Assembly (NCBI RefSeq): GCF_009936375.1
Contig: NZ_AP022332.1
Span: 1,607,501 to 1,671,500 of the forward strand
Direction of reading: 5' to 3'
From: Methylosinus sp. C49
GTDB lineage: Bacteria; Pseudomonadota; Alphaproteobacteria; Rhizobiales; Beijerinckiaceae
Length of the DNA stretch: 64,000 nucleotides
Shown: positions 4,635 through 50,091 of the stretch, in pieces
Position numbering within the stretch: the stretch's first letter is position 1
How the letters are laid out: every line of letters begins with the position of its first letter
Program-made: the position numbers and the translations under genes
Notes under the pieces: model-generated
Database searches by the model: none
What the model was told of the DNA's origin: nothing
The model's input: only the letters and a program-made list of their open reading frames with translations

Positions 4635-4849
4635 GCGATCCTCTCGCTGGTCGGCGCGAAGCTCGCCGTTCCCGTCGCCGTCGAAACGCGGTTCGCGGCG
4701 TTGTTTCTCGCGCGCCATGGGGTCCGCCGCCTCGGTTTTCCTCTGGCCGCGGCGTGATGCGCGCGGCCGACGCCGACACTAGCTTTAATGCTGTCGATTT
4801 AAGGGCCGGTTAAGCAAAGAGGGGCGCCGCGCTTCGCCGCAATAGGAAC

Positions 4850-13330: not shown

Positions 13331-13542
13331 GCTTCTATTAACCTTAACTTAACGTCGGCTGAGCCATTTTAGCTTTTGGCGGCGGTTCAGGATTCTCCAT
13401 CGCTCGGGCCGCGTCGCACGGCGCGGGCGGTCGATCGACCACGTCTGCGCGCGCTCGCGGCGCGTTGCGAATTATTGCTTGCGGATGAGCGCAAATTAAA
13501 AGGGTGATCGGCTTGCGCGCTTTTATTCCGAGGGGTTTGCGA

Positions 13543-19210: not shown

Positions 19211-21376
19211 TTATTCCGCCGCGGCCGGCATTTCGGCCACGATCATATCGGCGCGCGGCCGCGCCACGATCGCATCGACGTCGAGAATGAGCGCCACTCT
19301 GCCGTCGCCGAGAATCGTCGCGGCGGCGATGCCGTGCACATGGCCGTAATTGGTCTCGAGGCTCTTGATCACGACTTGGCGCTGACCCTGGATGGCGTCG
19401 ACGAGCAGCGCGCATTTGGCGCCGCTTTCCGACTCGACGAGAAGCGCGACCTGCGATGTCGCCTCGATCGGCTCGTCGCGGTAGAGCAGCACGGCGCCGA
19501 CGTCGATCAGTGGCGTGAAAGTGTTGCGCGTGGCGATGACGCGCGCGCCGGCGCCGAGCTCGTGCACGCTCTCTTTCTTGGGTTGCAGCGTCTCGATGAT
19601 CGCGGTCAGCGGAATGACCAGAGTCTGTCCGCCGACGGTCACGACCATGCCGTCGAGTACGGCGAGAGTGAGCGGCAGGCTCATCGAGAAGGTGGAGCCG
19701 CGGCCGGGCACGGAGGAGATGGAGATGCGGCCGCCGAGCGCTTGAATCGCGCGCTTGACCACATCCATGCCGACGCCGCGCCCGGAGATGTTGGAGACCG
19801 ACGAGGCGGTGGAGAAGCCGGGCAGAAAGATGAGATTGTCGATCTCGTCGTCGGTGAGATTTGCCTCAGCCGGTATCAGCCCTTTGGAGACGGCGATCTG
19901 ACGCACGCGCGCGCGATTGATGCCGGCGCCGTCGTCGGCGACCTCTATGACGATGCGGCCCGAGCGATGCGTCGCGGAAAGTCGCAGCGAGCCTTCTTCC
20001 GGCTTGCCGGCGGCGATCCGGTCTTCCGCTTTCTCGATGCCGTGATCGACGGCGTTGCGGATCATATGAGTGAGCGGATCGGTCAGCCGCTCGATGACGG
20101 TCTTGTCGACCTCGGTCGTCTCGCCGTCCATGACGAGGCGAACGGCCTTTCCGGTCATCGACGCGACCTCGCGCACGGTGCGCGACATGCGTTGGAACAC
20201 CGGCTTCACCGGCTGCGCGCGAATCGCCATCACGCTGTCCTGAATGTCGCGCGTCAGCTGCTCGAGCTCGTCGAGGCCGATCACGACGGAGGAGGCGCGC
20301 GAGAGGCCGGCCTCCGAAACGCGCTGCGACAGCATCGCTTGATTGATGACCAGCTCGCCGACGAGATTGATGAGGCGATCGACGCGATCGAGATCGACGC
20401 GGATTGTCGCCTGCACGGAGGCCGAGCCTTCGCCCTTCGCCGATTCCGCCCTGGCTGCGGCAGGATGCTCGTCGCTCGGCGCGGCGAAGGAGGCCGGCGT
20501 GGGATCGATGGCGACACTCGTCTGCTTGGGCTCGGCGACGGGGGCGGAGGCCTCTGGCGCCTCATGCGGCTCGAGCGACTCCTGCAGAGCCTCGAGCAGC
20601 TTGCCGACATCGGCCGTCTCGACTGAAAGCTCGCAATCCCATTCGACGAACTCGAACACCTCGCGCACCTGCGCTTCGGAAGCGCTCGTCGTCAGACGAA
20701 TCGTCCAGCCGAGATAGGCGCCTTCCGGGTCGAGCTCCGACAGCAGCGGAATCTCGGAGATATCGCATTCGACGCTCATCTCGCCGAGGCTGCCGAGCTC
20801 GCGCAACAGGCGCAGCGACTCGTTGGCCTTGGCGTAAAGCCCCGCGCTCGGCTTGAACCGAACGATGAAATCCTGCGTCGCCGGCGCCTCCGGTTCGCCG
20901 ACGTCGAAGATGGAATCGAGCGAGATGCAGACCGGCTGGAAGTCGAGCGCCTCGACGCTGACCTTGCCATCGTCGTCGCCATGTCGCGGGGCGCCGCCGA
21001 GCAGGGCGCTGAGCTCGTCCGCTATGACCTTCACCGCGCCCGCGTCGGCGCTGCCGCCTTCGCGCGCGGCGCGAACGAGATCGGCGAGCACGTCGGAAGC
21101 GCGCAGCAGCGTCTTGGTGACGGCCGGCGTCGCGGCGAGCTTGGCGGATCTTATGAGATCGAGCGTGGTCTCGAAGACATGGACGAATTCCACGAGCTCG
21201 TCGAAGCCGAAAGCGCCCGCGCCGCCCTTGATCGAGTGAACAGCGCGGAACACGGCGTTGACGGTCTCGAGGTCGTCGTCTCCATCCTCCATTCGGAGCA
21301 GCCCGCTCTCCAGCTCGACGAGCTGCTCCTCACATTCTTGAAAGAATGTCTGCTTGATGGCGGCCATCGGATCCAC
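19211..21376 (-). CDS. cheA: Chemotaxis histidine kinase CheA
   Basis: This 721-residue kinase phosphorylates CheY and CheB. Domains in order are HPt with phospho-His47 ('AVHSIKGGAGAFGF'), a CheY/CheB-binding region (about 140-260), a dimerisation helix pair ('DRVDRLINLVGELVINQ'), an ATPase domain ('HMIRNAVDHGIE', 'VADDGAGIN', 'GRGVGMDVV') and a C-terminal CheW-like domain. I choose the GTG at 21376, which has AAGGGAGA six bases upstream and gives the typical N-terminus MDPMAAIKQTFFQEC. Alternative starts are a TTG at 21394 and an ATG at 21367. Confidence 0.97.
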   Translation of the reverse strand: MDPMAAIKQTFFQECEEQLVELESGLLRMEDGDDDLETVNAVFRAVHSIKGGAGAFGFDELVEFVHVFETTLDLIRSAKLAATPAVTKTLLRASDVLADLVRAAREGGSADAGAVKVIADELSALLGGAPRHGDDDGKVSVEALDFQPVCISLDSIFDVGEPEAPATQDFIVRFKPSAGLYAKANESLRLLRELGSLGEMSVECDISEIPLLSELDPEGAYLGWTIRLTTSASEAQVREVFEFVEWDCELSVETADVGKLLEALQESLEPHEAPEASAPVAEPKQTSVAIDPTPASFAAPSDEHPAAARAESAKGEGSASVQATIRVDLDRVDRLINLVGELVINQAMLSQRVSEAGLSRASSVVIGLDELEQLTRDIQDSVMAIRAQPVKPVFQRMSRTVREVASMTGKAVRLVMDGETTEVDKTVIERLTDPLTHMIRNAVDHGIEKAEDRIAAGKPEEGSLRLSATHRSGRIVIEVADDGAGINRARVRQIAVSKGLIPAEANLTDDEIDNLIFLPGFSTASSVSNISGRGVGMDVVKRAIQALGGRISISSVPGRGSTFSMSLPLTLAVLDGMVVTVGGQTLVIPLTAIIETLQPKKESVHELGAGARVIATRNTFTPLIDVGAVLLYRDEPIEATSQVALLVESESGAKCALLVDAIQGQRQVVIKSLETNYGHVHGIAAATILGDGRVALILDVDAIVARPRADMIVAEMPAAAE

Positions 21377-21403
21377 GGGCGATCTCCCTTGCAACGCTAC
21401 GCT

Positions 21404-21769
21404 CTACACAGCCACGCGGCGAATCGCGTCCACGAGCTTCACGGGATTGAACGGCTTGACGATCCAGCCCGTCGCGCCGGCGCGGCGCGCGCGATCCTTC
21501 TTCTCGCCGTCGCTCTCCGTTGTCAGCACCAAAATCGGAACGCCGCGATGCTTCTCGTGCCGACGCACGCCTTCGATGAAGCCGAAGCCATCCATGCGCG
21601 GCATGTTGATGTCGGTGACGATGACGTCGGGCGTCTCCTTCTCGAGCACTTCCAGCCCATGCACTCCATCCTCGGCCTGCACGACGCTGAAGCCCGCTTC
21701 GGACAGAGCGAGCATCAGCATCTCGCGCATGGTTCGGGAATCGTCGACGGTCAGAATAGTCTTGCTCAT
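21404..21769 (-). CDS. cheY1: Chemotaxis response regulator CheY (first copy)
   Basis: This 121-residue receiver has 'LTVDDSRTM' (acid pair), phospho-Asp53 in 'IVTDINMPRMDGFGF', the switch Thr in 'LVLTTES' and Lys in 'WIVKPFNP'. The ATG overlaps the stop of the STAS gene (ATGA). Position before cheA matches CheY1 of Sinorhizobium, thought to drain phosphate from CheA rather than signal to the motor. Confidence 0.95.
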   Translation of the reverse strand: MSKTILTVDDSRTMREMLMLALSEAGFSVVQAEDGVHGLEVLEKETPDVIVTDINMPRMDGFGFIEGVRRHEKHRGVPILVLTTESDGEKKDRARRAGATGWIVKPFNPVKLVDAIRRVAV

Positions 21770-22044
21770 TTCGTGCTTTCCTGTTCGGAAATGTCGGTGA
21801 AGGGAATGCCGAGCGTCTCCAGTGCGTCGAGGAGAGGCTCGGACGGATGGGCGACATTCAGGGGCAGTCCATCGGCCGTCCAGGTCGCATGCGCGGACAG
21901 CAGGACTTGGATGCATTGCGCGCCGACCTTGGCGACGCTCGAGGCTTCGATCGTCAGCGGATTGCCGCGCGCCTGCAGAAGCTCCGTGGCGAGCGGAGAG
22001 GCCGCGCGAATGTCGAGGATCTCGGGCAGGCTGACAGTGACCAT
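21766..22044 (-). CDS. STAS-domain protein at the cheS position
   Basis: This 92-residue protein is a single STAS domain (anti-sigma-factor-antagonist fold): 'LPEILDIRAASPLATELLQARGNPLTIEASSVAKVGAQCIQVLLSA' gives the strand-helix pattern, with Ser/Val where the phospho-acceptor Ser of SpoIIAA-like proteins would be. In Sinorhizobium the gene before cheY1 is cheS, whose product binds CheA and promotes CheY1-P decay. Equivalence is inferred from position. Confidence 0.85.
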   Translation of the reverse strand: MVTVSLPEILDIRAASPLATELLQARGNPLTIEASSVAKVGAQCIQVLLSAHATWTADGLPLNVAHPSEPLLDALETLGIPFTDISEQESTK

Positions 22045-22087
22045 CGGCTCGTCTCTATGTCGTTGCGGGGGAGGGCGAGGCTATGGC

Positions 22088-22558
22088 TCAAGCCGCGTCG
22101 AGAACCGGCTCAGGCAGCAGATTCTGAATGGTCAGCACGCTGATCATCTCGTCGCCCGCGGCGACGACGCCCTTCACGAATGTCCGCGCGATCTCGGAGG
22201 CGACCTCGGGAGTCGGTTGAATCGCATCCTGCGTCAGCGTCAGAATATTCGACACGGCGTCGACGAGGAGGCCGACGACTTGCCCGGCCGATTGCACGAC
22301 GATGACGGCATGACGCGCCGTCGGCTCGCTCTGCATCAGTCCGAGACGCGTCGCGAGATCGATGACCGGCAGCACGGCGCCGCGCAGATTGATGACGCCG
22401 CGCACGAAAGTCGGCGCATGCGGCAATGGCGTGGCCGGCGTCCAGCCGCGAATTTCGCGCACCGCCATTATGTCGATGCAGAATGTCTGGGCGCCGATGT
22501 GAAAGGCGATGAATTCCTTCGCCTCGCTCGTCGCCACCCGGGAAATCGTCTCGGCCAT
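22088..22558 (-). CDS. cheW: Chemotaxis coupling protein CheW
   Basis: This 156-residue SH3-like adaptor links receptors to CheA. Hallmarks are 'EFIAFHIGAQTFCIDIMAVREIRGW', 'FVRGVINLRGAVLPVIDLATRLGL' and 'GLLVDAVSNIL'. It begins 2 bases after the receptor gene and is followed by the STAS gene with a 43-base gap. Only one CheW gene is present in the operon, and it lies upstream of cheA, next to the receptor. Confidence 0.96.
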   Translation of the reverse strand: MAETISRVATSEAKEFIAFHIGAQTFCIDIMAVREIRGWTPATPLPHAPTFVRGVINLRGAVLPVIDLATRLGLMQSEPTARHAVIVVQSAGQVVGLLVDAVSNILTLTQDAIQPTPEVASEIARTFVKGVVAAGDEMISVLTIQNLLPEPVLDAA

Positions 22559-22560
22559 GA

Positions 22561-24033
22561 TCAGAACTCCTCCCAGCCTTCCTCGACCTGCGCAGGCTGC
22601 TCTTTCGGAAGCGCGCCGCCACGCGTCGTGACGCGCCGCGGCTGCGCCTTGTTCGTCGAAAGCGGCATTTGCCGCTTGGGCGCAAAAGCCGCGGCCTCGC
22701 CGCGCTCGCCGAGATCGAAGGCGGCGACGGATGTGGCCAACCGCTCGATGTCGCTCTTCAAGCCATGGCTCGCGGCGGTCGTCTCCTCGACCATTGCGGC
22801 GTTCTGCTGCGTGAACTGATCCATTTGGGCGACGGCCGTGTTGACCTCTGCGAGGCCGGTCGCCTGCTCGCGCGCGCCATTGGCGATCTCGACCACTACC
22901 TTGTTCGCCTCGACCACCTGATCCACGATGCGATCGAGCGACTTGCCGGTCTGCGCGACCAGAGTCACGCCATCCTCGACCTGCGAGGAGGATGTCGAGA
23001 TGAGGCTCTTGATTTCGCGCGCGGCTTCCGCCGAGCGCTGGGCGAGCGCGCGCACCTCGGAGGCGACGACGGCGAAGCCGCGTCCCGCCTCACCCGCGCG
23101 CGCGGCCTCGACGCCGGCGTTGAGCGCGAGAAGATTGGTCTGAAAGGCGATCTCGTCGATGACGCCGATGATCTGGCCGATCTGGCGCGACGAGGTCTCG
23201 ATGCGCCCCATCGCCTCGATCGCATTGCGCACGATCTCGCTGCTGCGCGTGGCGTCGGCCTGCGCCTCCGAGACGACGCCGGCCGCGCGCTGCGCGCCAT
23301 CCGACGTCTTATGAACCGTAGCGGTGATCTGCTCGAGCGCCGCGGAAGTTTGCTCGAGGCTCGCCGCCTGCTGCTCGGTGCGCTGCGCCAGCGCATCCGC
23401 CGCTCCAGCGATCTCGCCGGTGCGCGAGGTGAGGCCGTCTATATGGCCGAGCATATCCGCGAAGGCGCCGCGCAGCTTGTCGAGCGCGACATTGTAGCAA
23501 TGACGAATCTTCTCGTAATCAGAGGAGAAGGGCTCATTGAGCCTGTGCTTGAGATTGCCGGCCGCGAGGCGCTCGAGCCCTTCCGTGAAGGACTTCATGA
23601 AGAATTCATGCGCAGCGACATAGCCGCGCGACTCGGCGTCCTGCGATGCGCGGCGCTCGGCCGCGGAGCGCTGCTCCGCGCTCGCCGCATCGGCGCGGCG
23701 ACGCATGTCGCTCTGCAATGTGGATCGAAGACTCTCGAGGGCGTCGAAAACGGCGCTCAGCTCGCCGCCTTTGCCGCTGTCCACGACCGGCGTCTCGAGA
23801 TCGCCATTACGAATGCGCTCTAGCGCGGCGACGAGAGACGTTGTCGGACGGGATATGCGGCTCGAGACCACGCGGTAAGCGGTGATCGCGCCGATGAGCG
23901 ACACGCTCGCTCCGACGGCTCCCCATAGAGGATCGAAGGAGACTGCGCTCTGCAGCATGTGCGGACCGAGGGAAACTATGGGACCGACCGCGATTCCGAT
24001 GATGGGCGCAACAAGTCTCGCGTATGTTTTCAC
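22561..24033 (-). CDS. Methyl-accepting chemotaxis protein with C-terminal xWxxF tether
   Basis: This is the first gene of the che operon, with 490 residues from the GTG at 24033 that follows a GGGGG run. The same frame continues open to an ATG at 24228, but that adds 65 residues lacking receptor features. Two hydrophobic stretches near the N-terminus (about 6-25 and 36-55) enclose a very short loop. Then come HAMP-like 'ISRPTTSLVAALERIRNGDLETPV' and the signalling hairpin ('FQTNLLALNAGVEAARAGEAGRGFAVVASEVRALAQRS'-type). It ends in GWEEF, the xWxxF form that recruits CheR/CheB in other receptors. Confidence 0.93.
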   Translation of the reverse strand: MKTYARLVAPIIGIAVGPIVSLGPHMLQSAVSFDPLWGAVGASVSLIGAITAYRVVSSRISRPTTSLVAALERIRNGDLETPVVDSGKGGELSAVFDALESLRSTLQSDMRRRADAASAEQRSAAERRASQDAESRGYVAAHEFFMKSFTEGLERLAAGNLKHRLNEPFSSDYEKIRHCYNVALDKLRGAFADMLGHIDGLTSRTGEIAGAADALAQRTEQQAASLEQTSAALEQITATVHKTSDGAQRAAGVVSEAQADATRSSEIVRNAIEAMGRIETSSRQIGQIIGVIDEIAFQTNLLALNAGVEAARAGEAGRGFAVVASEVRALAQRSAEAAREIKSLISTSSSQVEDGVTLVAQTGKSLDRIVDQVVEANKVVVEIANGAREQATGLAEVNTAVAQMDQFTQQNAAMVEETTAASHGLKSDIERLATSVAAFDLGERGEAAAFAPKRQMPLSTNKAQPRRVTTRGGALPKEQPAQVEEGWEEF

Positions 24034-24414
24034 CGCTGTGCCCCCGCTGCTGAAGTAACGACGCTCGGCTTCCGTCGCGACGTACGACCTCGCTATCGCT
24101 GAGGCAGACGAAAGGACGCGAGGTCCCGTCACGCGCGCGAGGCTCCACGCGGGAAGCGGTGTCGCGTTGGTTCGACTGATCGTGCGGAAAGAGGCGCCCC
24201 CGACGGGGACATGCCGGATCGCCGGCATATCGAGGCAGCTTCATGCTTTTGACCGACGTCTGAACGGTCAACCCGATATGCTTACAGCCTAGCGATAGGC
24301 GGTTAAATCTTCATTAGCGGGCTATAGAGGCGTCCGCCGCTGGCGGACGCCGCGATTCGACATAAATGGACACGCCGCTGCGCCGACGATTCGGCGCATC
24401 GCTCCACCGATGGA
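24034..24414. other. Gap between the che operon and a small gene
   Basis: This 381-base stretch probably holds the che operon promoter, if the receptor starts at 24033. No clear -35/-10 pair could be fixed. The only strong structure is the hairpin at 24329-24351. The minus-strand frame here is open but lacks a convincing coding pattern. Confidence 0.5.
24329..24351 (-). terminator. Perfect 10-bp stem-loop after the small gene
   Basis: GGCGTCCGCC (24329-24338) and GGCGGACGCC (24342-24351) form a perfect stem with loop GCT. It sits about 65 bases beyond the stop of the minus-strand gene at 24415 and before the che operon. No T-run follows, so termination is inferred. Confidence 0.5.
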
Positions 24415-24675: not shown

Positions 24676-24756
24676 TGTGGAGTCTCCCAGGAACGGCGGG
24701 TCGTTAAGAAATTAGTAATCAAATCTGGTGCGAGCCTTGCGCCGCTTCCGTGCTAC

Positions 24757-25179: not shown

Positions 25180-25414
25180 GCCGTTCAAAAGCGGCTTGAT
25201 CGCATCTCGTCTCGTCAACTCCAACGCCCCTCTAGTCGATCGCGCCGAGCTTCTCGGAAAGTCGAGCCTCCCGTCGGCGTGTGAAAGATAGGAGCGCGAT
25301 ATTATTTCAAGGTTAACCGTTTTCACCGAAAGCGTCATTCGCGCGCAGCCGACAGCCTCACGCAAGCCTCGAGACTTCTAATCCCGGCGTCTCACGGATA
25401 TGAAGGAATGACAG

Positions 25415-29259: not shown

Positions 29260-29607
29260 ATGTATCGTAATGTCTATGCTCAGACGGTCGAAGACTCCCC
29301 CGCTGTGGCCCGTGGTCGAGAGCGCGCCTTGCTCGAGAGGGCTATCCGGCTGCTCGCAGTGGCCAAGGTGAAAGGCGTGCGCAGCAGCGAGTCCTTCGAG
29401 GCGACCGCGAATATGCGCCGAATCTGGACTGTCTTCATCGAAGATCTCGGCAGTGACGGAAACGCGCTTCCCGAGGCGTTGCGAGCCTCGCTCATCTCGA
29501 TCGGCCTCTGGATTCTTCGTGAGCTCGAGGCGATCGACTGCGGTAGGTCGGATAATTTCGACGGCGTCATCGAGATCAATCAAATGATCGCCGATGGACT
29601 GAGCTGA
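29260..29607 (+). CDS. flaF: Flagellin biosynthesis regulator FlaF
   Basis: This 115-residue cytosolic protein is typical of alphaproteobacteria, where FlaF promotes flagellin synthesis and secretion and FlbT opposes it. Recognisable segments are 'YAQTVEDSPAVARGRERALLERAIRLL', 'MRRIWTVFIEDL' and 'LRASLISIGLWILRE'. It is 7 bases upstream of flbT. Confidence 0.95.
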   Translation: MYRNVYAQTVEDSPAVARGRERALLERAIRLLAVAKVKGVRSSESFEATANMRRIWTVFIEDLGSDGNALPEALRASLISIGLWILRELEAIDCGRSDNFDGVIEINQMIADGLS

Positions 29608-29614
29608 GGGCGGC

Positions 29615-30025
29615 ATGAATATTTCGTTACGGCGGGGCGAGAAGCTCTATCTCAACGGCGCGGTGATCCGCGCCGATCGAAAGGTCTGCATCGAGCTGCT
29701 CAATGACGTGACCTTCCTGCTCGAGAATCATGTGATGCAGGCGAAGGACGCCACGTCGCCTTTGCGACAGCTGTATTTCGTCGTGCAGCTGATGCTGATG
29801 TCGCCGAACGATACGGCGGCGGCATTGGACATGTGCCGCAGCATGCTGGCGTCCCTCAACACTGCCTTTCCCGACCCTCGAATTCTCAACGGGCTGGCGC
29901 TCGCTGCGAAATATGTCGAGGACAAGCGAATGTTCGATGCGTTGAAGACGATCCGCGCGCTGTTTCCATTCGAGTCCGAGATACTGGCGCCGAACGGGGC
30001 GCAGGACAGCGGCAAAGCAGCCTGA
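29615..30025 (+). CDS. flbT: Flagellin mRNA regulator FlbT
   Basis: This 136-residue regulator, characterised in Caulobacter, binds flagellin mRNA leaders and limits translation until the hook is finished. The signature N-terminus 'ISLRRGEKLYLNGAVIRADRK' and 'FLLENHVMQAKDATSPLRQLYFVVQLMLMSP' are present. GAGGG lies 5 bases before the ATG. The duplicated leaders upstream of the two flagellin genes in this window are obvious candidate targets. Confidence 0.96.
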   Translation: MNISLRRGEKLYLNGAVIRADRKVCIELLNDVTFLLENHVMQAKDATSPLRQLYFVVQLMLMSPNDTAAALDMCRSMLASLNTAFPDPRILNGLALAAKYVEDKRMFDALKTIRALFPFESEILAPNGAQDSGKAA

Positions 30026-38315: not shown

Positions 38316-39046
38316 AGCGCGCCGCCGCTCTCCTTCTACTTCTCCTCCTCACGCCGACCGCCGCTGTGGCGCAGGGGTTCGATCTCAACGCCCTGCTGCC
38401 TTCGGGCGGCGGCGCGGCCAGCGGAAGGATCGTCCAGATCCTCGTTCTGCTGACGGTGCTCTCCATCGCGCCGGGCCTGCTCATCATGGTGACGAGCTTC
38501 ACCCGCTTCGCCATAGCGCTGTCGTTTCTGCGCAGCGGCTTGGGGCTGCAGAGCACGCCGGCCAATCTCGTGCTCATCAGCCTCGCTTTGTTCATGACCT
38601 TCTATGTGATGGCGCCGACTTTCGACGCGGCCTGGAAGGACGGGCTGAAGCCGTTGATGGACAATAAGATCACCGAGGTGGAGGCGTTCGACAAAATCTC
38701 GCAGCCGTTCCGCAAGTTCATGATCGCCAATGTGCGTGACAAGGACATCAAGCTGTTCGAGAATTTGACCAAGGACAAAGGGACGACCGGAGATTATGAG
38801 AAGCTCGGTCTCCAGGTTCTCGCCCCCGCCTTCATGATCTCCGAGCTGCGCCGCGGCTTCGAGATCGGCTTTCTCATCGTGCTGCCCTTTCTCGTCATCG
38901 ACATGGTCGTCGCGGTGATCACAATGTCGATGGGCATGATGATGCTGCCGCCGACCGCTATCTCCTTGCCGATCAAAGTGCTGTTCTTCATCCTCATCGA
39001 CGGGTGGAATCTCCTCGTCGGCAGCCTCATCCGCTCTTACGGCTGA
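38312..39046 (+). CDS. fliP: Flagellar export gate protein FliP
   Basis: This 244-residue membrane protein with an N-terminal signal sequence forms the core of the export gate with FliQ and FliR, encoded in another operon here. Landmarks are 'APGLLIMVTSFTRFAIALSFLRSGLGLQSTPANLVLISLALFMTFYVM', 'FLIVLPFLVIDMVVA' and 'MGMMMLPPTAISLPIKVLFFILIDGWNLLVGSL'-type sequence. It is the last gene of its operon. fliO is not seen. Confidence 0.97.
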   Translation: MKRAAALLLLLLLTPTAAVAQGFDLNALLPSGGGAASGRIVQILVLLTVLSIAPGLLIMVTSFTRFAIALSFLRSGLGLQSTPANLVLISLALFMTFYVMAPTFDAAWKDGLKPLMDNKITEVEAFDKISQPFRKFMIANVRDKDIKLFENLTKDKGTTGDYEKLGLQVLAPAFMISELRRGFEIGFLIVLPFLVIDMVVAVITMSMGMMMLPPTAISLPIKVLFFILIDGWNLLVGSLIRSYG

Positions 39047-39210
39047 GGCGGCGTCCACAGGGAGCGCCGGCCGCCGAGCGCGGCTCCAAATCCCTGTTAG
39101 CCCTTCATTAATCGCATTTTTCGTGAATTGTGGCGATCCTCCGCCCGGCGTGTAATATCCGATTGTCGAGCGCGGCCATGCGGAACCGCAGGCGCGCCGT
39201 CGACAGAGTT

Positions 39211-39276
39211 CTTCGGATAGGGCCGGGCGCCCAAGGCATGATGCCGCTTCCGTCGAGCCGGTGAATTTCCGGGATG
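39211..39276 (+). promoter_or_regulatory. Structured 5' leader of flagellin gene 1 (conserved with copy 2)
   Basis: About 66 bases of the flagellin-1 leader are nearly identical to the leader of flagellin 2 (40446-40513). Three consecutive small hairpins can be drawn: GGGC/GCCC, GGCA-TGA-TGCC, and CCGG/CCGG with a 7-base loop. Spacing to the start codon is about 35-45 bases in both copies. Candidates are an FlbT-responsive leader or a member of the 'flg-Rhizobiales' RNA class. The conservation is seen directly; the function is inferred. Confidence 0.7.
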
Positions 39277-39308
39277 TCGCGTTCACCTCATCCAAGGATC
39301 GACGAGTC

Positions 39309-40220
39309 ATGTCCAGCATTTTGACCAACGCCTCCGCCATCACCGCTCTGCAGTCGCTGCGCTCGGTTCAGTCCTCGCTCGCCTCGACCCAGAAGGAGAT
39401 TTCGACCGGCCTGAAGATTTCTTCGGCCACCGACAACGCCTCCACCTGGTCGATCGCCCAGACGATGAAATCCGACCAGGGCGTTCTCTCGACCATCAGC
39501 GACTCGCTGTCGGTTAGCTCCTCAGTGCTCAACGTCGCCACCGCGGCCGTGACCAACGCCATCTCGGTCATCAACAACATCAAATCCGCTGTCGCGCAGG
39601 CAGCTCAGCCGGGCGCGGACACGGCGAAGATCGGCACCAGCCTCACCGGCCTCAGCGATCAGCTCAAGAGCATCGTCACCTCCGCGAACTTCAACGGCCT
39701 CAATCTGCTCGATGGCTCGCGCAGCACCTTCAATTCCATCGCCTCCTATAGCGACGGAACCGGCACTGCGGCTTCGGCGCTGAACACGATCGACCTCAAC
39801 GTCACGGCGCTGATCGGCGGCGGCGGCGCCTCGCCCGTGGTCGCGGCCGGCGCCGGCATATTGGAGGCGGCTCAGGCCACCGGCGCTACTGCGGCGACCG
39901 ATTTCACGAGCCTTTCGGCGAGCGACGTCGCTTCGGCCGCGACGATCACCGACACTCTGTCCAACGCCGACAAGGTGATCGCGGATCTCACGAAATACGC
40001 CTCGCAGATCGGCGCGACGCAGAGCAGCGTCAACGGCCAGGCCGCCTTCATGAAGACCCTGAACGAGGGTCTGACCGCGGGCGTGAGCTCGCTGGTCGAC
40101 GCCGACATGAACGAAGCCTCGACCCGCCTGCAGGCCTTGCAGACGCAGCAGCAGCTCGGCGTCCAGTCGCTGTCGATCGCCAATCAGAACAGCCAGATCA
40201 TTCTGCGCCTGTTCCAGTAA
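39309..40220 (+). CDS. flaA: Flagellin (copy 1)
   Basis: This 303-residue filament subunit has the conserved N-terminal D0/D1 helix ('ALQSLRSVQSSLASTQKEISTGLKISSATDNAS') and the C-terminal D0 helix ('EASTRLQALQTQQQLGVQSLSIANQNSQIILRLF'). The middle variable region is short, as in rhizobial flagellins. The start at 39309 has AAGGA upstream and matches copy 2. It is followed by a strong intrinsic terminator, so the two flagellin genes are separate transcription units. Symbol by analogy. Confidence 0.97.
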   Translation: MSSILTNASAITALQSLRSVQSSLASTQKEISTGLKISSATDNASTWSIAQTMKSDQGVLSTISDSLSVSSSVLNVATAAVTNAISVINNIKSAVAQAAQPGADTAKIGTSLTGLSDQLKSIVTSANFNGLNLLDGSRSTFNSIASYSDGTGTAASALNTIDLNVTALIGGGGASPVVAAGAGILEAAQATGATAATDFTSLSASDVASAATITDTLSNADKVIADLTKYASQIGATQSSVNGQAAFMKTLNEGLTAGVSSLVDADMNEASTRLQALQTQQQLGVQSLSIANQNSQIILRLFQ

Positions 40221-40251
40221 TTCGCCGCCGACCCTTCTTTTCCGGCAAGAG

Positions 40252-40281
40252 GCCGCGCCCTTCGGGGCGCGGCTTTTTTTT
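40252..40281 (+). terminator. Strong intrinsic terminator after flagellin 1
   Basis: GCCGCGCCC (40252-40260), loop TTCG, GGGCGCGGC (40265-40273), then eight T (40274-40281). This is a textbook Rho-independent terminator with a UUCG tetraloop. It isolates flagellin 1 from flagellin 2. Confidence 0.95.
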
Positions 40282-40445
40282 GTCTCGCGCCGGCGCCGGC
40301 GCATTTGGCCGCTTAGACCTTTGTTAAGGTTATCTAGTTAGGTTAACCACCGTGCAGGCTGTGCTGTAACCGTCGATGCCGGAACGGTTTCGACGGGTCG
40401 TCGAGTGGATTTGGCTCCCGCGATGTGGCGCTCCGCCGATGACTG

Positions 40446-40513
40446 CTTCGGATAGGGCTCCCGAGCCCAAAGGCATGATGCCGTTTCCGTCGAGCCGGTG
40501 AAATTCCGGGATG
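40446..40513 (+). promoter_or_regulatory. Structured 5' leader of flagellin gene 2 (conserved with copy 1)
   Basis: The second copy of the flagellin leader. Hairpins are GGGCT (40455-40459) with AGCCC (40464-40468); GGCA (40472-40475) with TGCC (40479-40482); CCGG (40495-40498) with CCGG (40506-40509). Compared with copy 1 the first stem differs in sequence but still pairs, which is a compensatory-type change. The surrounding non-structured bases upstream (40282-40440) do not match copy 1, so the block is selectively kept. Confidence 0.7.
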
Positions 40514-40554
40514 CCATTCGTCACTAGTTTCACCCCAAAAGGGATCGATGAGTC

Positions 40555-41466
40555 ATGTCCAGCATTCTCACTAATCCATCGGCTATCACGGCCCTTCAGT
40601 CGCTGCGGGCGACGCAGCAGGCGCTTGCGAGCACGCAGAAGGAAGTTTCGACGGGCCTCAAGATTTCGAGCGCCACCGATAACGCCTCCACCTGGTCGAT
40701 CGCCGAGACGATGAAGTCCGATCAAGGCGTGCTGTCGACGATCGGCGATTCGATGGCGGTGAGCTCATCGCTCCTGAACATCGCCCAGACCGCCGTCACC
40801 AATGCGATCTCGGTGCTCAACAACATCAAATCGGCGGTCGCGCAGGCGGCGCAGCCCGGCGCCGACACGGCGAAGATCGGCACGAGCCTGACCGGCCTCA
40901 GCAATCAGCTGAAGAGCATCGTCGCTTCGGCCAGCTTCAACGGCCTCAATATTCTGGACGGCTCGCAATCGTCCTTCGCCTTCATCGCCTCTTACACGGA
41001 TGGCGGCGGCTCGACCGCTTCGGCGCTCAACACGATCGATCTCACAGCGACCGCGCTGATCGGCGGTGGCGGAGCCTCGCCTGCGGTGGCGGCGGGCTCG
41101 GGCATTTTGGAAGCCGCGCAGGGAACGGGCGCGACGGCCGCGACCGATTTCACCAATTTATCGGAGACGGACGTCTCCTCGAGCTCGGTGATCACCGATT
41201 CGCTGACCAACGCCGACAAGGTGATCTCCGATCTCACCAAATATGCGGCGCAGATCGGCGCGACGCAGACGACGATCACCGGTCAGGCCGCTTTCGTCAA
41301 AACATTGAACGAAGCCCTCACCAATGGCGTCAGCTCGCTCGTCGACGCCGACATGAACGAGGCCTCCACGCGCCTGCAGGCGCTGCAGACGCAGCAGCAG
41401 CTCGGCGTGCAGTCTCTCTCGATCGCCAACCAGAACAGCCAGATCATCCTCAAGCTGTTCCAGTGA
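40555..41466 (+). CDS. flaB: Flagellin (copy 2)
   Basis: This 303-residue paralogue of copy 1 has the same length and nearly the same termini; differences cluster in residues about 20-70 and 140-230. The ending 'QLGVQSLSIANQNSQIILKLF' differs from copy 1 by one residue (Lys for Arg). The upstream start context GATGAGTC-ATG is shared. Two flagellins may build a mixed filament, as in Sinorhizobium complex flagella. Symbol by analogy. Confidence 0.97.
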   Translation: MSSILTNPSAITALQSLRATQQALASTQKEVSTGLKISSATDNASTWSIAETMKSDQGVLSTIGDSMAVSSSLLNIAQTAVTNAISVLNNIKSAVAQAAQPGADTAKIGTSLTGLSNQLKSIVASASFNGLNILDGSQSSFAFIASYTDGGGSTASALNTIDLTATALIGGGGASPAVAAGSGILEAAQGTGATAATDFTNLSETDVSSSSVITDSLTNADKVISDLTKYAAQIGATQTTITGQAAFVKTLNEALTNGVSSLVDADMNEASTRLQALQTQQQLGVQSLSIANQNSQIILKLFQ

Positions 41467-45008: not shown

Positions 45009-46165
45009 AGATAAAGGTGCGAGCCTCCGTTCTCGCCGCTGGGCTGATCTTTGGTCCGACATGCTGCGCCGACGCCGGCGAGCTCACCGAGCAGGTGCGC
45101 GCGCTCAACACTCTGCAAGGCTCGATGGTGCAGGGCGCCGCTGGCGCAAGGGGCGCCATTCCCGCGCAGATCGAGCGCATAGAGCAGGTCGTCGCTTCGC
45201 TCGAAGCCGACGATTGGAAACAGAAGAGCAATTCCGCCGCCGCCGCGATCTTTCTGTTCTGCGGCGGTCCGTCGCGCTCGATCCGAAAGATTCTCGACGC
45301 CCATCTCATCCCGGATGGGGACACGCCCCTCGTCGCCGGCGCTGTCGCCTATGCGGAAGGACGGAATGAGGAGGCGGTCAAGCTGCTGACGCCGATCGAT
45401 GCGCGAGCGCAGGCCGACACGCTCGCGGCGCATCTGGCGTTGATCCAAGGCGGGCTGCTGATCGGCTCCGATAAGGCGAAGGCGCGCGAGCTGTTCGATC
45501 TCGCGCGTCTGCTGATGCCGAGCTCTCTCGTCGAGGAGGCCGCATTACGACGTGAGATGTCGATCGTCGATGTGACGCAGGATCCCACCAAATTTCTCGT
45601 GCTCGGCCGCCGCTACGGCTCCCAATATGCAAGATCGCCCTTCTCGCGCAATTATTGGGACGAAATGCGTGCTGCGACCTTGCGCGCGGCCGCCATTGGC
45701 GACAATTCGCGCTTGAGCGAATTCCGCGGTCTGCTGAAAGGCGCCTCGCCAGGATTGCGCTTCGAGACTCACATGGGCGTCGCGCGGCAGGCGATATTGA
45801 GCGGCCGCGTCGCTCTGGCGATCAACGAGACCCAATATGCAGGGCCTCTCGCAGACACGGCCACGGCCCGCGCGCGCGTCGAGCTCTATCGCGCCGCCAT
45901 CGCCGGACTCACCGGCGAGTTCGAGACGGCGGAAGCGGAGTTTCAAAAAATAGATCCGAGAATTCTCCCTTCGGCCGATGTCGAGGTTCGCAATATCGTG
46001 ACGGCCGCGATCAGCCGTCTGCAAGGCGTCGCCGACGGCGTGTCATCCGCCGCGGCGAGCGCGCCGGCGCAAGAGGAGACGCGTCCCGATTCGATGGTCG
46101 AGCGTTCTGCGCAGCAAGCGCTGACCGACGCCGACGCGCTGCTGCAGCGGGCGACGCGCAGATGA
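45005..46165 (+). CDS. motC: Periplasmic motility protein MotC
   Basis: This 386-residue exported protein is found in rhizobia, where MotC interacts with MotB in the periplasm and needs MotE. It starts at a TTG overlapping the motB stop (TTGA), with AGGAG about 7 bases upstream; a GTG at 45017 is an alternative. A signal peptide (VLAAGLIFGPTCCADA) is followed by helical repeats ('VAYAEGRNEEAVKLLTPI', 'ARELFDLARLLMPSSLVEEAALRREM') of TPR-like character. Confidence 0.93.
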   Translation: MKIKVRASVLAAGLIFGPTCCADAGELTEQVRALNTLQGSMVQGAAGARGAIPAQIERIEQVVASLEADDWKQKSNSAAAAIFLFCGGPSRSIRKILDAHLIPDGDTPLVAGAVAYAEGRNEEAVKLLTPIDARAQADTLAAHLALIQGGLLIGSDKAKARELFDLARLLMPSSLVEEAALRREMSIVDVTQDPTKFLVLGRRYGSQYARSPFSRNYWDEMRAATLRAAAIGDNSRLSEFRGLLKGASPGLRFETHMGVARQAILSGRVALAINETQYAGPLADTATARARVELYRAAIAGLTGEFETAEAEFQKIDPRILPSADVEVRNIVTAAISRLQGVADGVSSAAASAPAQEETRPDSMVERSAQQALTDADALLQRATRR

Positions 46166-49100
46166 CCGTCGACGCTCTGTTTCCCAATCTTCAGACCGCG
46201 CGTCTTCTCGGTCGCCAAACGGATGCGGCTTCGTCCGGGCAGCGCGAGTCCGATGCTGCGGACGTCGATCAATTCGCTTCGCTGCTCTCCGATCTCGACG
46301 ATAGAAGCGCTGTCGTTGCCCGCGCCTCTCTCACGGAAGCGACGACGGATGATGCCGGCGTCGACTCCAACGAAGCTCCCTCGGTCGAGGCGACGAGCAA
46401 TGCGCCGTCGCAGATGCAGGCCTTCATTACGGTCCCGGCGCTGGACATGAGCTGGCGGCCCGCCGTGGCGGCGCAGGCGCCATCCGATGAATCCACAGAC
46501 GCCGTGGCGCCGCCGCGTGCGGAAGCGAGATCGCGAGCCGATGTCGCCGCCAATGAGGCCGCGATGCGCTCGTCGAGACCGATCGCGATCGAGGCCGATG
46601 GTCGTATCGCGGAGAGCGTTGACGTCGCGTCTCGAGCCGCGGCCTCATCTGAGCCAAAAGCTTCGCAGCAGGCGCCGTCCGCTCGTCCTGTATCCTCGCT
46701 GCAGCGGGCCGAGGGCGCTTCCAGCGCTCGACGCTCCGATATAGCTGCGCGGTCGCCGTCCATCGCGTCGGCGCATGTCTCCGCGGAGGCGCGGAGCGAC
46801 GCTTCGAGCACATTTGCGTCGCGGCCCGCCTCTTCACGCCCGGACTCGACAGCCGGGCGGATCGCCATCGCTTCTTCGGCGAATGATGTCGGCGCAGGGT
46901 CGTCCGATGACGACAGAACTGCCGTCGCCGCCACTCTTGCTCCATCCAGCATGGCTGCTGCGGTCTCGCCGGATCTCGCGCGAAGCGCGGCCGCGCCGCA
47001 GCGAGATCCGTCCACGGCGCGCGCGGCGAATTCGCAAGCGCGCCCGCTCGACGCGACCCCTTCGGCTCGACCTGCCTCAGAAGCTACCGCGCCGCGCGTT
47101 TTCGCCGCTTCGGACACGCCGATACGCGCGGCGGCCTCCTCGCGCGCCGATCTCTCGCGCGCCGATTTCTCGGGAGCGGATGTAACGGCTTCGGCGCCGC
47201 CTCCTCGCGAGGGGAGCGCAGAGCTCGGCGCCGACAATCGCCAATCGCCGCATCCCCTCGATAGCGCTCTAGCGATCCCCAGCGATAAGACCTCAGCCGC
47301 TTCGATCGACGCGACAGTCGCTCGGAGCGGCGAGTCGTCCATCGCATCTCCCGCTATGACGTCTTTTGTGAAATATGCGTCGTCCGATGATTCGGCGCCT
47401 TTCGCGTCGTCCATCGCCATGGCGTTCGAGGACGAGCGCGCGTCAGCAGCAGAGGCGCCTGTCGCCTCAAATTCCGTATCGGCTCCGCTCGAGGAGACAG
47501 ACGCGCAGGAGCAGACACAACGAGCCCTGGTCGTCGATCGGCAGTCGGATCGCGCTCCCGTGCAGTCGACGCCGTCTGCGATGGAAGCGCAGACGCAAGC
47601 CGTCGCGCAAAGTTCGGACCAGACCGCCGGCGAAGCGCCGATCGCCCATGCGAACGATTTCGCGCCATTCGAGTTGCGCGAGCCTGCGCGTTCGGCGTCA
47701 CCCGCATCTTCGAACGGGAACGCGCCGATTCGGGCGGCGGATTCGATCGCAAATCTTTCCTCGCTGCAGAGCTTCTCTGCGGAAGGCGAGAGCGTCTACG
47801 CGCCAATGTCGTCGCCGAGTCCTGCTTCGGCGCCTCTCTCTGCGAGGACGACTTCCGCCGACAGCGCTCTTGCCGCCGATGATCGAGCTTCGCGAGCCCA
47901 TGTCTCGCGCGCTAGCGTCGCGCTTTCGTCGGATGAATCACCGAGAGCCGCTTTTTCGGCGAACGTCCGGCGTTCTTCAGACGTCGCGACCGAAGGAGGA
48001 TCATACGCCTCTCGAGCAGCGACGCCTTCGGTCGCCTCCGATGCTGGCGTTCGCGCCTTCGCGCCGTTCGAGCTTCGCGGCGAGGTCGCGCCTTCGATGA
48101 CCTCGGGGACGGCCGCTCGCGATATGCGCGTCGATCCGTCCCAGGATGTCGGCGCCGTCTCCGCGGCGCGCGGAGACCAATCGACTTTCGTCGCGCCGTC
48201 GTCGCTCGGCGACCTCGGCGTCTCGAGGTCTTATGCTTTGCCGGAGCAGTCGCGAAAGGCGCAGACGTCGGTCGATCAGCGTGATTCCATGGTCGAAGCC
48301 GCTCCGGCTTCGGCGCGCGCTCGGACGCGCGCTGCGTCCTCGATTGCGGAAATCGCCATCGATATCGCTGCGCGCTCTCCCTCGGACAGCGCCGAGCGGA
48401 ATGTGCAGGGCGCATCATCGCGCGTGGGGGATTTCCAGTCGCGCGCCAATGGCGAGGCTACGACCGCAGACGCTTCCGCATTGCGGTATCGCCCAGCGAG
48501 GCGTGTCGAAGCCTCTGACGATAGACGAGGCGACGCTTTCGCCACGTCGATCGAGGCGGGCAATAGACAGTCGGGCAGGGACGCGACGCCGAGCGTCGCG
48601 TCGTCGCGAGCCGCCGGCGTCACGGGCGCTGCGCTGGATCATGGCGCGCAGACCGATCGCACTGCTGGCGCTGCGATCGAGGCGTTCGACGCCGGCGCGC
48701 GGAGTCCGTCGATCTCTCTGCCGCAGAAAGACTCCGCGAGCGTCGACGTGGGCGCGTCGCGATCTGTTTCCACCGCGACAACGCCAAATCCGCCGATCTC
48801 GACGGAAGCGCCAAGCTCGGCGCCTGTCGGCGATTCTGCTCGCGCGGTCGCGACAGCCTCACGCGCTCGGCCCGAGGCGGCGATGAGCGTCGACGACTCC
48901 GCCGCTTCGCAGCCCGTGGCGAGACCTTGGTCCGGCGGGCCGGCCGAGAGCGAGCGCGCGCGAACCTCCTTCACAGCGCCGATCGATAATCGCATGTCCG
49001 CATCGGCTCCAGGGGATCGCGCGCCGAATGATGACCGCGCATCGGCCGCGCCGACAGACGCCGCGGGGATTCCATCCTTCTCGGCAGTCGCCGGCGGCGA

Positions 49101-50091
49101 TGCGCCGCGTGCGGCCTTCACTGCGCCGCCGACATCCGCGCCGCAGCGTGATCGCATGACCGCTGTCCGGCCGAGCGATCGGATTTCGGCCAATGATCGG
49201 CGCACGAGCGCATCGACCGCGCCCGTGGCTTCCGACGCCTCGACTGTCGCCGCCTCATTCGCCGATGCGGGCGGCGTCGACGCCGCGAGATCCGGCGACG
49301 ATCGAAATTCGGACCGCCGCTCGATGGCTGCGGCCGACGATACGAGATCCTCGACATTCGACGCCAGCGCCGATATGTCGACGCCGACGAATGCATCTGC
49401 CGGTGCGCCCGTTGCGTCGAAGGTCTCCGTAACGCCGAGCGTTGTGACGATCGACGACGGAGCGAGCGCAGCGACGCCAGAGCCGATCGGAACGCTCGCT
49501 ATTCTCGCGCCGGCGACACAATTGCCGACGGCTTTCGCCGAGCTGCTCGCGCCGCAAGCGCGCAGCCTCATCGCTTCCGCGTCTCTGGCGTCTTCGGCGA
49601 CGGTGACGACGGCGCCCGCCTCGAACATCGGGGAGGGGCAACGGCAGAGCGTGGCGCCGAAGATTTTGACCATAGAGCTCGAGCCCGCGGCGCTGGGCGC
49701 CGTCACTGTGAAAATGAAGCTGGCGCATTCGGGAATAGACATGCGCATCAGCGTCGAGTCCACCGAGGCGCTGCGCCGGCTCGATTCGACGCGCGAGAAG
49801 CTCGTCGAGGCGATGCAGTCGTCCGGCTGCACGATCGACTCCTGCACGATACAGATCGGCCAGAGCGTCCCCGACGGCGCCAATGCGCAAGCCGCGCCCG
49901 ACAATGGCGGGGGCTTTGCGCAATCGGGCGGAGCCGGACGCGAGGAGCAGAGCGTCGGTCGACAGGGAGCGGGCTATGGGGGATCGGGCGGTGATCGCAG
50001 GCAAGGCGCGGGCGCAGAGAATGGCGATCGGGCGCCGAATGGCGAGCCTCGCCGCGTCGCTGATCGCCGTGGCGGCGACGTCTATCTGTGA
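46162..50091 (+). CDS. fliK: Giant flagellar hook-length control protein FliK (MotD)
   Basis: At 1309 residues this is far longer than typical FliK (about 370-500). The N-terminus is followed by a huge Ala/Ser/Asp/Arg-rich, Cys-free, probably disordered region (about 60-1110) with loose repetition, including two FAPFELR copies at residues 500 and 633. The conserved C-terminal substrate-switch domain is intact near residues 1165-1240 ('ILTIELEPAALGAVTVKMKL', 'MRISVESTEALRRL'). FliK is a secreted ruler that sets hook length. The frame is uninterrupted for 3.9 kb and coupled to motC (ATGA). Confidence 0.93.
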   Translation: MTVDALFPNLQTARLLGRQTDAASSGQRESDAADVDQFASLLSDLDDRSAVVARASLTEATTDDAGVDSNEAPSVEATSNAPSQMQAFITVPALDMSWRPAVAAQAPSDESTDAVAPPRAEARSRADVAANEAAMRSSRPIAIEADGRIAESVDVASRAAASSEPKASQQAPSARPVSSLQRAEGASSARRSDIAARSPSIASAHVSAEARSDASSTFASRPASSRPDSTAGRIAIASSANDVGAGSSDDDRTAVAATLAPSSMAAAVSPDLARSAAAPQRDPSTARAANSQARPLDATPSARPASEATAPRVFAASDTPIRAAASSRADLSRADFSGADVTASAPPPREGSAELGADNRQSPHPLDSALAIPSDKTSAASIDATVARSGESSIASPAMTSFVKYASSDDSAPFASSIAMAFEDERASAAEAPVASNSVSAPLEETDAQEQTQRALVVDRQSDRAPVQSTPSAMEAQTQAVAQSSDQTAGEAPIAHANDFAPFELREPARSASPASSNGNAPIRAADSIANLSSLQSFSAEGESVYAPMSSPSPASAPLSARTTSADSALAADDRASRAHVSRASVALSSDESPRAAFSANVRRSSDVATEGGSYASRAATPSVASDAGVRAFAPFELRGEVAPSMTSGTAARDMRVDPSQDVGAVSAARGDQSTFVAPSSLGDLGVSRSYALPEQSRKAQTSVDQRDSMVEAAPASARARTRAASSIAEIAIDIAARSPSDSAERNVQGASSRVGDFQSRANGEATTADASALRYRPARRVEASDDRRGDAFATSIEAGNRQSGRDATPSVASSRAAGVTGAALDHGAQTDRTAGAAIEAFDAGARSPSISLPQKDSASVDVGASRSVSTATTPNPPISTEAPSSAPVGDSARAVATASRARPEAAMSVDDSAASQPVARPWSGGPAESERARTSFTAPIDNRMSASAPGDRAPNDDRASAAPTDAAGIPSFSAVAGGDAPRAAFTAPPTSAPQRDRMTAVRPSDRISANDRRTSASTAPVASDASTVAASFADAGGVDAARSGDDRNSDRRSMAAADDTRSSTFDASADMSTPTNASAGAPVASKVSVTPSVVTIDDGASAATPEPIGTLAILAPATQLPTAFAELLAPQARSLIASASLASSATVTTAPASNIGEGQRQSVAPKILTIELEPAALGAVTVKMKLAHSGIDMRISVESTEALRRLDSTREKLVEAMQSSGCTIDSCTIQIGQSVPDGANAQAAPDNGGGFAQSGGAGREEQSVGRQGAGYGGSGGDRRQGAGAENGDRAPNGEPRRVADRRGGDVYL

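Follow-up and report, generated by a model that had tools for sequence, protein, structure and literature searches.

The window analyzed here, a stretch of 64,000 nucleotides of the Methylosinus sp. C49 genome, carries two flagellin genes, each preceded by a leader of about 66 nucleotides that is nearly identical in the two copies (approximately 39206-39276 and 40441-40513), as an earlier note on this DNA had pointed out. An 18-nt block is 89% identical and a 47-nt block 94% identical between the copies, and the stem-loop that joins these blocks is unlike in sequence and length. Inspection confirmed that the sequence has diverged farther upstream of both leaders. When we searched for the central 29-nt pattern with up to three mismatches, the flagellin-leader pair were the only copies in the genome, and 6 of the 149 genomes of the family that we scanned contained a match, all of them from the same genus. 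The closest flagellin to those of the window is that of M. sporium (96% identical).

The features are given below, with the paired elements (P1 to P4) named according to the architecture described in the next section. Scores come from two search models: R1, built from 22 leaders, all of flagellin genes, and R2, whose 47 training rows take in all five copies of the module in this genome. Both flagellin copies are in the training sets of R1 and R2.

29260..29607, plus strand: FlaF (Pfam PF07309, 5.7e-29)
29615..30025, plus strand: FlbT, proposed reader of the leader RNA (Pfam PF07378, 2.6e-37, confirming the earlier gene call)
39097..39111: TTAA-N7-TTAA-like box with one mismatch, 5' of leader 1
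39206..39280, plus strand: core module, flagellin-1 leader (R1 83.1 bits for 39206-39308, R2 67.8 bits)
39214-39217 with 39249-39252, plus strand: P1 of leader 1, CGGA/UCCG
39220-39223 with 39229-39232, plus strand: P2 of leader 1, GGGC/GCCC
39235-39245, plus strand: P3 of leader 1, GGC-AUGAU-GCC
39258-39261 with 39269-39272, plus strand: P4 of leader 1, CCGG/CCGG
39294..39299, plus strand: Shine-Dalgarno sequence AAGGAT of flagellin 1
39309..40220, plus strand: flagellin 1 (Pfam Flagellin_N, Flagellin_C)
40247..40278, plus strand: terminator-like element (hairpin with T run) separating flagellin 1 from leader 2
40313..40327: TTAA-N7-TTAA-like box with one mismatch, 5' of leader 2
40441..40517, plus strand: core module, flagellin-2 leader (R1 86.4 bits, R2 68.8 bits)
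40449-40452 with 40486-40489, plus strand: P1 of leader 2, CGGA/UCCG
40455-40459 with 40464-40468, plus strand: P2 of leader 2, GGGCU/AGCCC
40472-40482, plus strand: P3 of leader 2, GGC-AUGAU-GCC
40495-40498 with 40506-40509, plus strand: P4 of leader 2, CCGG/CCGG
40555..41466, plus strand: flagellin 2 (Pfam)
24303..24317: TTAA-N7-TTAA-like box with one mismatch, 5' of the chemotaxis leader
24206..24283, minus strand: third module copy, 5' of the chemotaxis operon (72.2 bits with R2, which was trained with it)
Within the third copy, minus strand: P1 CAUAUCGGG with CCUCGAUAUG; P2 UUGACC/GGUCAA; P3 AGC-AUGAA-GCU; P4 CCGG/CCGG
22564..24033, minus strand: MCP chemoreceptor gene downstream of the third copy (Pfam MCPsignal, 3.6e-52; GTG start inferred)
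19211..22558, minus strand: remaining chemotaxis operon, with CheW and STAS (Pfam) and CheY and CheA (from open reading frames)

The third copy is more diverged than the flagellin copies. R1, having seen flagellin leaders only, detected it at 24187-24283 on the minus strand with 42.6 bits and a genome-wide E-value of 1.2e-9.

All three copies lie between a TTAA-N7-TTAA-like box on the 5' side and a start codon on the 3' side; we take the boxes to be of the CtrA type. Seven such boxes occur in the window (0.74 expected), and three of them sit 20 to 115 nt upstream of the three module copies; the other four are at 4799-4813, 13338-13352, 24704-24718, and 25302-25316. A search of 39000-40700 gave no sigma-70-type site. 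The positions of the boxes fit a transcription start 5' of the module, short of proof, and the two flagellin blocks most likely belong to the 5' untranslated regions of their mRNAs. Taken alone, the terminator-like hairpin between flagellin 1 and leader 2 is weak, because one such element was found and 1.2 are expected in shuffled sequence. Elsewhere in the window, 45655-50091 holds a very long Ser/Ala/Arg-rich open reading frame of unusual size, whose C-terminal part resembles a FliK hook-length protein by eye.

Architecture and covariation of the leader RNA

Comparison of the leaders of related flagellins (69 loci) revealed a common architecture, which is present in Methylosinus, Methylocystis-type metagenome-assembled genomes, Microvirga, Rhodomicrobium, and some Rhizobium. 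A long-range stem, P1, encloses two hairpins, P2 and P3; these are followed by P4 and then by the segment AUGUCCC (consensus after P4, UGUCCC). P1 differs in sequence among leaders, with examples such as ACGACAG/CUGUCGU, CAGCGGA/UCCGCUG, AGCGUUGG/CCAAUGUU, and the CAUAUCGGG/CCUCGAUAUG pair of the third copy. P2 is a variable hairpin. P3 consists of three pairs, with a loop that is usually closed by C-G and is mostly AUGAN and in a few leaders AUCAN or AUUAN, and P4 has the form CCGG-loop-CCGG. The P3 loop and the P4 stem contain the most conserved bases. P3 and P4 are 20 to 23 nt apart, as measured with a search window of 19 to 24 nt and with some anchors set by hand.

The earlier note had drawn three independent hairpins in each flagellin leader. 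Its stems 1, 2, and 3 correspond to P2, P3, and P4, and stem 1 does pair in both copies despite its differing bases (GGGC/GCCC at 39220-39232, GGGCU/AGCCC at 40455-40468). The hairpins are not independent, since P1 encloses P2 and P3. By comparison with the relatives, P1 is formed by CUUCGGA, 5' of stem 1, with UCCGUCGA, 3' of stem 2; in both flagellin copies it is short, with the four pairs CGGA/UCCG.

Covariation across relatives strongly supports the view that the module is a structured leader RNA. Both sides have changed at 15 of 25 pairs in alignment A2 (22 sequences) and at 19 of 25 in A3, which was fitted to the model and is therefore biased toward it. For the core alignment A5 (47 sequences, MAFFT), 17 of 20 pairs are double-changed, compared to 13.0 for shuffled alignments, of which none among 500 scored as high, and there are 128 double-change cells, compared to 45.8. 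In the same alignment, 84.9% of cells are paired, compared to 73.8% in shuffles and 33 to 50% when the partner is slid by one to three columns. In A8, made of 17 copies from extra loci, 91.4% of cells are paired and 13 of 22 pairs are double-changed. The A5 and A8 figures favor the structure in two ways: the P1 and P2 registers were chosen on those alignments for the most pairs, and the rows were partly selected by a structure-aware model. RNAalifold applied to A5 recovered P3 and P4 only.

When four single leaders were folded, 4, 92, 13, and 33 of 200 shuffles folded equally well. The minimum-energy folds of two relatives (L010 and L096) contain P1 to P5, P3 there having four pairs and a loop of three bases, and that of a third (L033) contains P1 to P5 in part. 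The fold of the chemotaxis copy contains P1, P2, and P3 without P4. The minimum-energy folds of both flagellin copies do not show the consensus structure, so the structure of these copies rests on comparison rather than on folding energy; for the four stretches tested, 152, 28, 177, and 88 of 200 shuffles folded at least as well.

In many of the relatives' flagellin leaders, the segment after P4 is complementary to the Shine-Dalgarno sequence, a pairing that we call P5. In 14 leaders of the GGGAC/GGGGC type, it mostly comprises 7 to 8 pairs. Across 36 leaders, which were drawn from a model that contains P5, segments paired with their own partners at -8.9 kcal/mol, compared to -7.5 kcal/mol for permuted partners (0 of 500 permutations as low). 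This excess comes from the GGGAC/GGGGC group. Microvirga segments scored -8.8 and -7.5 with the Shine-Dalgarno sequences of other groups and only -6.2 with their own, and Methylosinus segments pair as well with the sites of the GGGAC group as with their own. P5 is weak in the flagellin copies of the window. Copy 2 scored -7.3; copy 1, in which the two segments overlap, was outside the scoring, and its segment after P4 possibly pairs weakly with AAGGAT or with the bases just 3' of it. In the chemotaxis leader, direct pairing with the Shine-Dalgarno sequence is inapplicable, because the inferred start codon lies approximately 170 nt downstream.

Distribution of the module and the genes behind it

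In the genome of the window, R1 detected two further copies, one on contig C4 (46.1 bits, E = 1.0e-10) and the minus-strand chemotaxis copy of the window (E = 1.2e-9). The scores of 59 to 72 bits that R2 assigns to the copies of this genome are partly by construction, because all five were in its training set; R2 found no sixth copy there (maximum otherwise 17.6 bits).

R1 returned 19 strong matches (E ≤ 7e-20) across 10 genomes of the genus, and all 11 that we checked, in six genomes, lie before flagellins. It gave 19 further matches at E ≤ 1e-3, with at least one per genome. We checked the genes behind 15 of these 19, and 12 are chemoreceptors or chemoreceptor-led che operons. A PAS-type gene lies between module and chemoreceptor at one locus (L145), and at another the module precedes a third flagellin-like gene (L146). 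Four of 11 weaker R1 matches were checked (L139, L152, L153, and L154), and chemoreceptors lie behind all four. Pfam identified MCP signaling domains in the window gene, L139, L144, the second gene of L145, L148, and L150; the other chemoreceptor calls were read from sequence. The contig C4 copy (L138, G000 C4:85205-85308) has no close gene 3' of it, and an STAS-CheY-CheA set begins approximately 400 nt farther on. In a sister genome, a copy (L140, G146 C1:1211451-1211552) precedes a TadG-like gene whose Pfam Tad match is just below the cutoff, so a pilus link of the module regulon is possible. This TadG-like pilus gene is apparently absent from the genome of the window.

Beyond the order, class-wide R1 matches (L097 to L105 and L108) were rejected as chance, lying in or before seemingly unrelated genes. 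For this reason, we did not trust R1 E-values near 1e-6, obtained with a shortened calibration, without supporting context.

With R2, 14 of 41 genomes of the order contained a match at E ≤ 0.01, and we accepted the motif in 8 of them. Outside the training set, 17 of the 21 matches at E ≤ 1e-3 lie before flagellins (14) or sensor genes (3). Behind the latter are a protoglobin-MCP gene (L181), a NIT-HAMP gene (L186), and a gene with a weak HAMP match only (L185); the genes of L185 and L186 are cut by the end of the sequence stretch. The sensor behind L181 (G171, module on the minus strand) is HemAT-like. The four matches before neither flagellin nor sensor are L169, L170, L171, and L182, the last of which precedes a gene that is PilZ-like by eye and matches no Pfam family. 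Six matches (L169 to L174, in G163, G162, G165, G179, G167, and G168) were rejected, being coding or unrelated by reading. Of 20 R2 matches that we fetched, none was letter-identical to a training locus, and the nearest similarity was 0.58 to 0.74.

R2 searches of 70 sources around related flagellins gave 66 matches. In Microvirga, two modules abut in 12 flagellin loci (e.g., L054, 5823-5970), the weakest at 22.9 bits. Three plasmid records, chosen because they encode a window-like FlbT (48 to 52% identity), contained seven matches at E ≤ 0.5, six of them at 30.7 to 59.9 bits. Five lie before annotated flagellins, two in Sinorhizobium meliloti and three in Phyllobacterium; of the remaining two, one has no listed gene behind it, and the weakest (24.4 bits) lies within fliR. 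R2 scores stayed at or below 24.9 bits in 40 FlbT-bearing genomes of other orders. Overall, the module is most likely a case of a widespread cis-regulatory RNA.

FlbT and the possible readings of the leader

We consider it probable, with appreciable room for doubt, that the module is a cis-regulatory 5' leader RNA to which FlbT binds in order to time translation. That a flagellin leader here might be an FlbT target was proposed in the earlier note, and the comparative data support it indirectly: the motif lies 5' of flagellins and chemoreceptors and co-segregates with one FlbT clade. Across the 41 genomes of the order, 27 encode FlbT and 30 have a Flagellin_N match. All eight genomes with an accepted motif encode FlbT, and the accepted motif is missing from 19 of the 27 FlbT genomes. 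In a tree of 37 FlbTs, from which three rows (L241, L243, and L245) were left out, the eight motif-associated proteins form one side of a branch (support 100/99). The motif labels require one change on this tree, compared to 7.5 in shuffles, and 0 of 500 shuffles were as clustered. The tree tool warned of a long branch where the motif clade joins. One genome (G183) encodes two FlbTs, one near motif flagellins and inside the clade, the other near long flagellins and outside it. Flagellins behind the module are of the kind of about 300 residues, and the long flagellins that we fetched have no module; some flagellins of 290 to 400 residues (G150, G158, and G167) also lack it.

The window FlbT was matched by 10 of 12 FlbTs fetched from other orders (E = 4e-8 to 6e-20) and by just 1 of 20 further FlbTs from its own order. 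Judging by their identity of 48 to 52% to the window protein, the FlbTs from Sinorhizobium, Shinella, and Phyllobacterium look as if they belong to the same branch. This clade pattern is expected if the branch reads the module; it is confounded, because whole flagellar systems are co-inherited, which would give the same picture. No solved structure matched the window FlbT at E ≤ 1, no FlbT relatives turned up in a scan of viral contigs, and a single-sequence AlphaFold model (pLDDT 63) was too poor for searching. Six of 17 members of the family have a weak Sm-like Pfam match (best E = 0.016).

The FlbT-controlled flagellin mRNA leader of Caulobacter is reportedly the subject of work by Anderson and Gober in 2000 and by Ardissone in 2020. 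It resembles the module in lying 5' of flagellins in an alphaproteobacterium with FlbT and FlaF. The module differs in its junction and in its tandem copies in Microvirga, and R2 gave no match above background in the 40 FlbT-bearing genomes of other orders, among which Caulobacter was perhaps not included. In the literature, FlbT is proposed to bind the flagellin 5' untranslated region by an unresolved mechanism and to act negatively in Caulobacter and positively in Brucella (PMC4347634); co-repression by FlbT and FljJ is described as relieved by secretion (PMC7591256); and Class III targets are reported to include flagellins and Che proteins (PMC4347634, PMC3930126, PMC7591256, PMC9812332), with Che proteins given in PMC9812332. 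The proposed action of FlbT is also like that of CsrA-FliW, in which a small RNA-binding protein acts on a flagellin leader, and one source calls the Caulobacter FlaF/FlbT pair possibly analogous (PMC4894983). CsrA is described as binding GGA motifs, whereas the module presents A-U-N-A-N loops. A relationship of FlbT to CsrA found no support: hhalign gave 13% for one clade and 0.1% and 2.8% for others, and CsrA was absent from the Pfam matches of 17 FlbTs (E ≤ 10) and from the PDB profile matches.

Four other readings of the leader have to be weighed. The module might be a metabolite or ion riboswitch for late motility genes, with the P1-P3 junction and P4 as aptamer, P5 as expression platform, and FlbT a mere neighbor. 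Its junction architecture, its tandem copies, the anti-Shine-Dalgarno pairing in many leaders, and the occurrence of a single element before different genes of one pathway would all be typical of a riboswitch. We nevertheless regard this reading as unlikely: no Rfam riboswitch matched, the most conserved bases are in simple hairpins (the P3 loop and the P4 stem), the module co-segregates with one FlbT clade, and some module-less flagellin leaders keep the AUGAN hairpin alone, which a protein reader fits better. Equally, the leader might be an element of mRNA stability or localization read by another RNA-binding protein or by the decay machinery. We hold this reading improbable as well: in the 41 genomes the module goes with one type of flagellar system, and the genes that it precedes are mostly motility genes, so that a factor dedicated to the flagellum is the better candidate.

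The conserved inverted repeats might instead be operator sites in the DNA, and the lone GCTCATGATGAGC is likewise an inverted repeat in DNA. In the module, as distinct from the lone hairpins, the arms of P1 and P2 change and yet keep pairing, and the segment after P4 matches the Shine-Dalgarno sequence of its own gene; we judge the operator reading very unlikely there, though it may apply to the lone hairpins. The suggestion that the leader is a copy of the flg-Rhizobiales RNA (RF01736) can be set aside almost entirely. RF01736, described with three stem-loops (PMC3765529), is like the module a cis-regulatory element of flagellar genes in the same order, but its covariance model found no match in the window at the gathering cutoff (55 bits), none over 39000-40600 up to an E-value of 10, and none in the whole genome. 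Its loops are UGGGAGA in six aligned matches and differ from those of the module, and the 141-position model precedes an FlgF-like start (by eye), whereas the module precedes flagellins and chemoreceptors. RF01736 itself (L083 to L094) occurs at E ≤ 0.001 in 18 of the 150 genomes searched from the order. Only 3 of these 18 are above its cutoff, though the six aligned matches are full length, which suggests that the Rfam model is narrow. Rfam 15 gave no match on the motif at 20 motif loci (E ≤ 0.05), the matches off the motif being a tRNA and one overlapping unrelated match (L183), and our literature search found no description of the module RNA.

Hairpins with a pentaloop related to that of P3 stand alone in some leaders that have no module. 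Among 27 module-less flagellin leaders, mostly from Rhizobiaceae, 12 have an AUGAN-loop hairpin of at least four pairs, compared to 0.28 in shuffles. For the same 31 loci, flagellin leaders carry the C-G closed AUGAN form at 65 times the density found outside them; of 11 such hairpins, 9 lie 32 to 36 nt before the start codon. When C-G closed pentaloops on stems of at least four pairs were ranked, AUGA came first in the module-less leaders (10 of 27; 0.02 expected), AGAA/AGGA in 35 leaders of long-flagellin systems (11; 0.08 expected), and AAAA in 33 leaders of other orders (6; 0.04 expected). In P3 of the module, which has three pairs, AUGA ranks first at that stem length only (40 of 57), and several modules (L015, L016, L023, L033, L328, and L329) have C or U at position 3 of the loop. 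Within the last 30 nt, AGRAN hairpins occur in 18 of the 35 long-flagellin leaders (0.98 expected) and in 8 of the 33 leaders of other orders (0.71 expected); in many of the long-flagellin cases, the 3' arm includes the Shine-Dalgarno sequence. The 33 remain from 40 fetched leaders, 7 having been dropped because no start was found; 2 of L250 to L286 were dropped for the same reason, and L247 to L249 were tallied separately (0 of 3). These counts describe a pattern found by looking, in rows that share ancestry, and many rows of each group do not have it.

We tentatively propose, as a possibility that we hold with less than even confidence, that alphaproteobacterial FlbTs read a common code, a C-G closed A-N-N-A-N pentaloop in late-motility leaders with positions 2 and 3 set by the FlbT branch, and that the module is an elaborate, tandem-capable operator whose regulon comprises flagellins and chemoreceptors. 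Under this hypothesis, which the counts give a good initial backing, the loop would be mostly A-N-R-A-N. Positions 2 and 3 would be mostly UG in the branch of the window's FlbT, in both the full module and the lone hairpins of Rhizobiaceae-type leaders, G followed by A or G in the long-flagellin systems of the order, and AA or GA in other orders.

The mechanism that we envisage begins with FlbT binding the module, chiefly at the P3 pentaloop, perhaps with flagellin as its co-repressor, as reported for Caulobacter. Bound FlbT would hold the leader with the ribosome site paired (P5) or blocked. Completion of the hook-basal body and export of flagellin would make FlbT release the leader, and the late motility proteins (flagellins, chemoreceptors, and Che proteins) would be translated together. 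The tandem modules of Microvirga would provide two binding sites. The sequence fits either direction of FlbT action on the module, repression or activation.

The module adds an RNA family that has no counterpart in Rfam 15. Its presence before both chemoreceptors and flagellins would mean, if the proposed reading is true, that an RNA element ties chemoreceptor synthesis to flagellar assembly. The covarying RNA, its conserved loop, the list of target genes, and the associated FlbT clade together allow a direct test of the FlbT mechanism, and the FlbT question becomes one of a single hairpin, a single loop, and a single protein, in organisms that include the laboratory species Sinorhizobium meliloti, which carries the module too.
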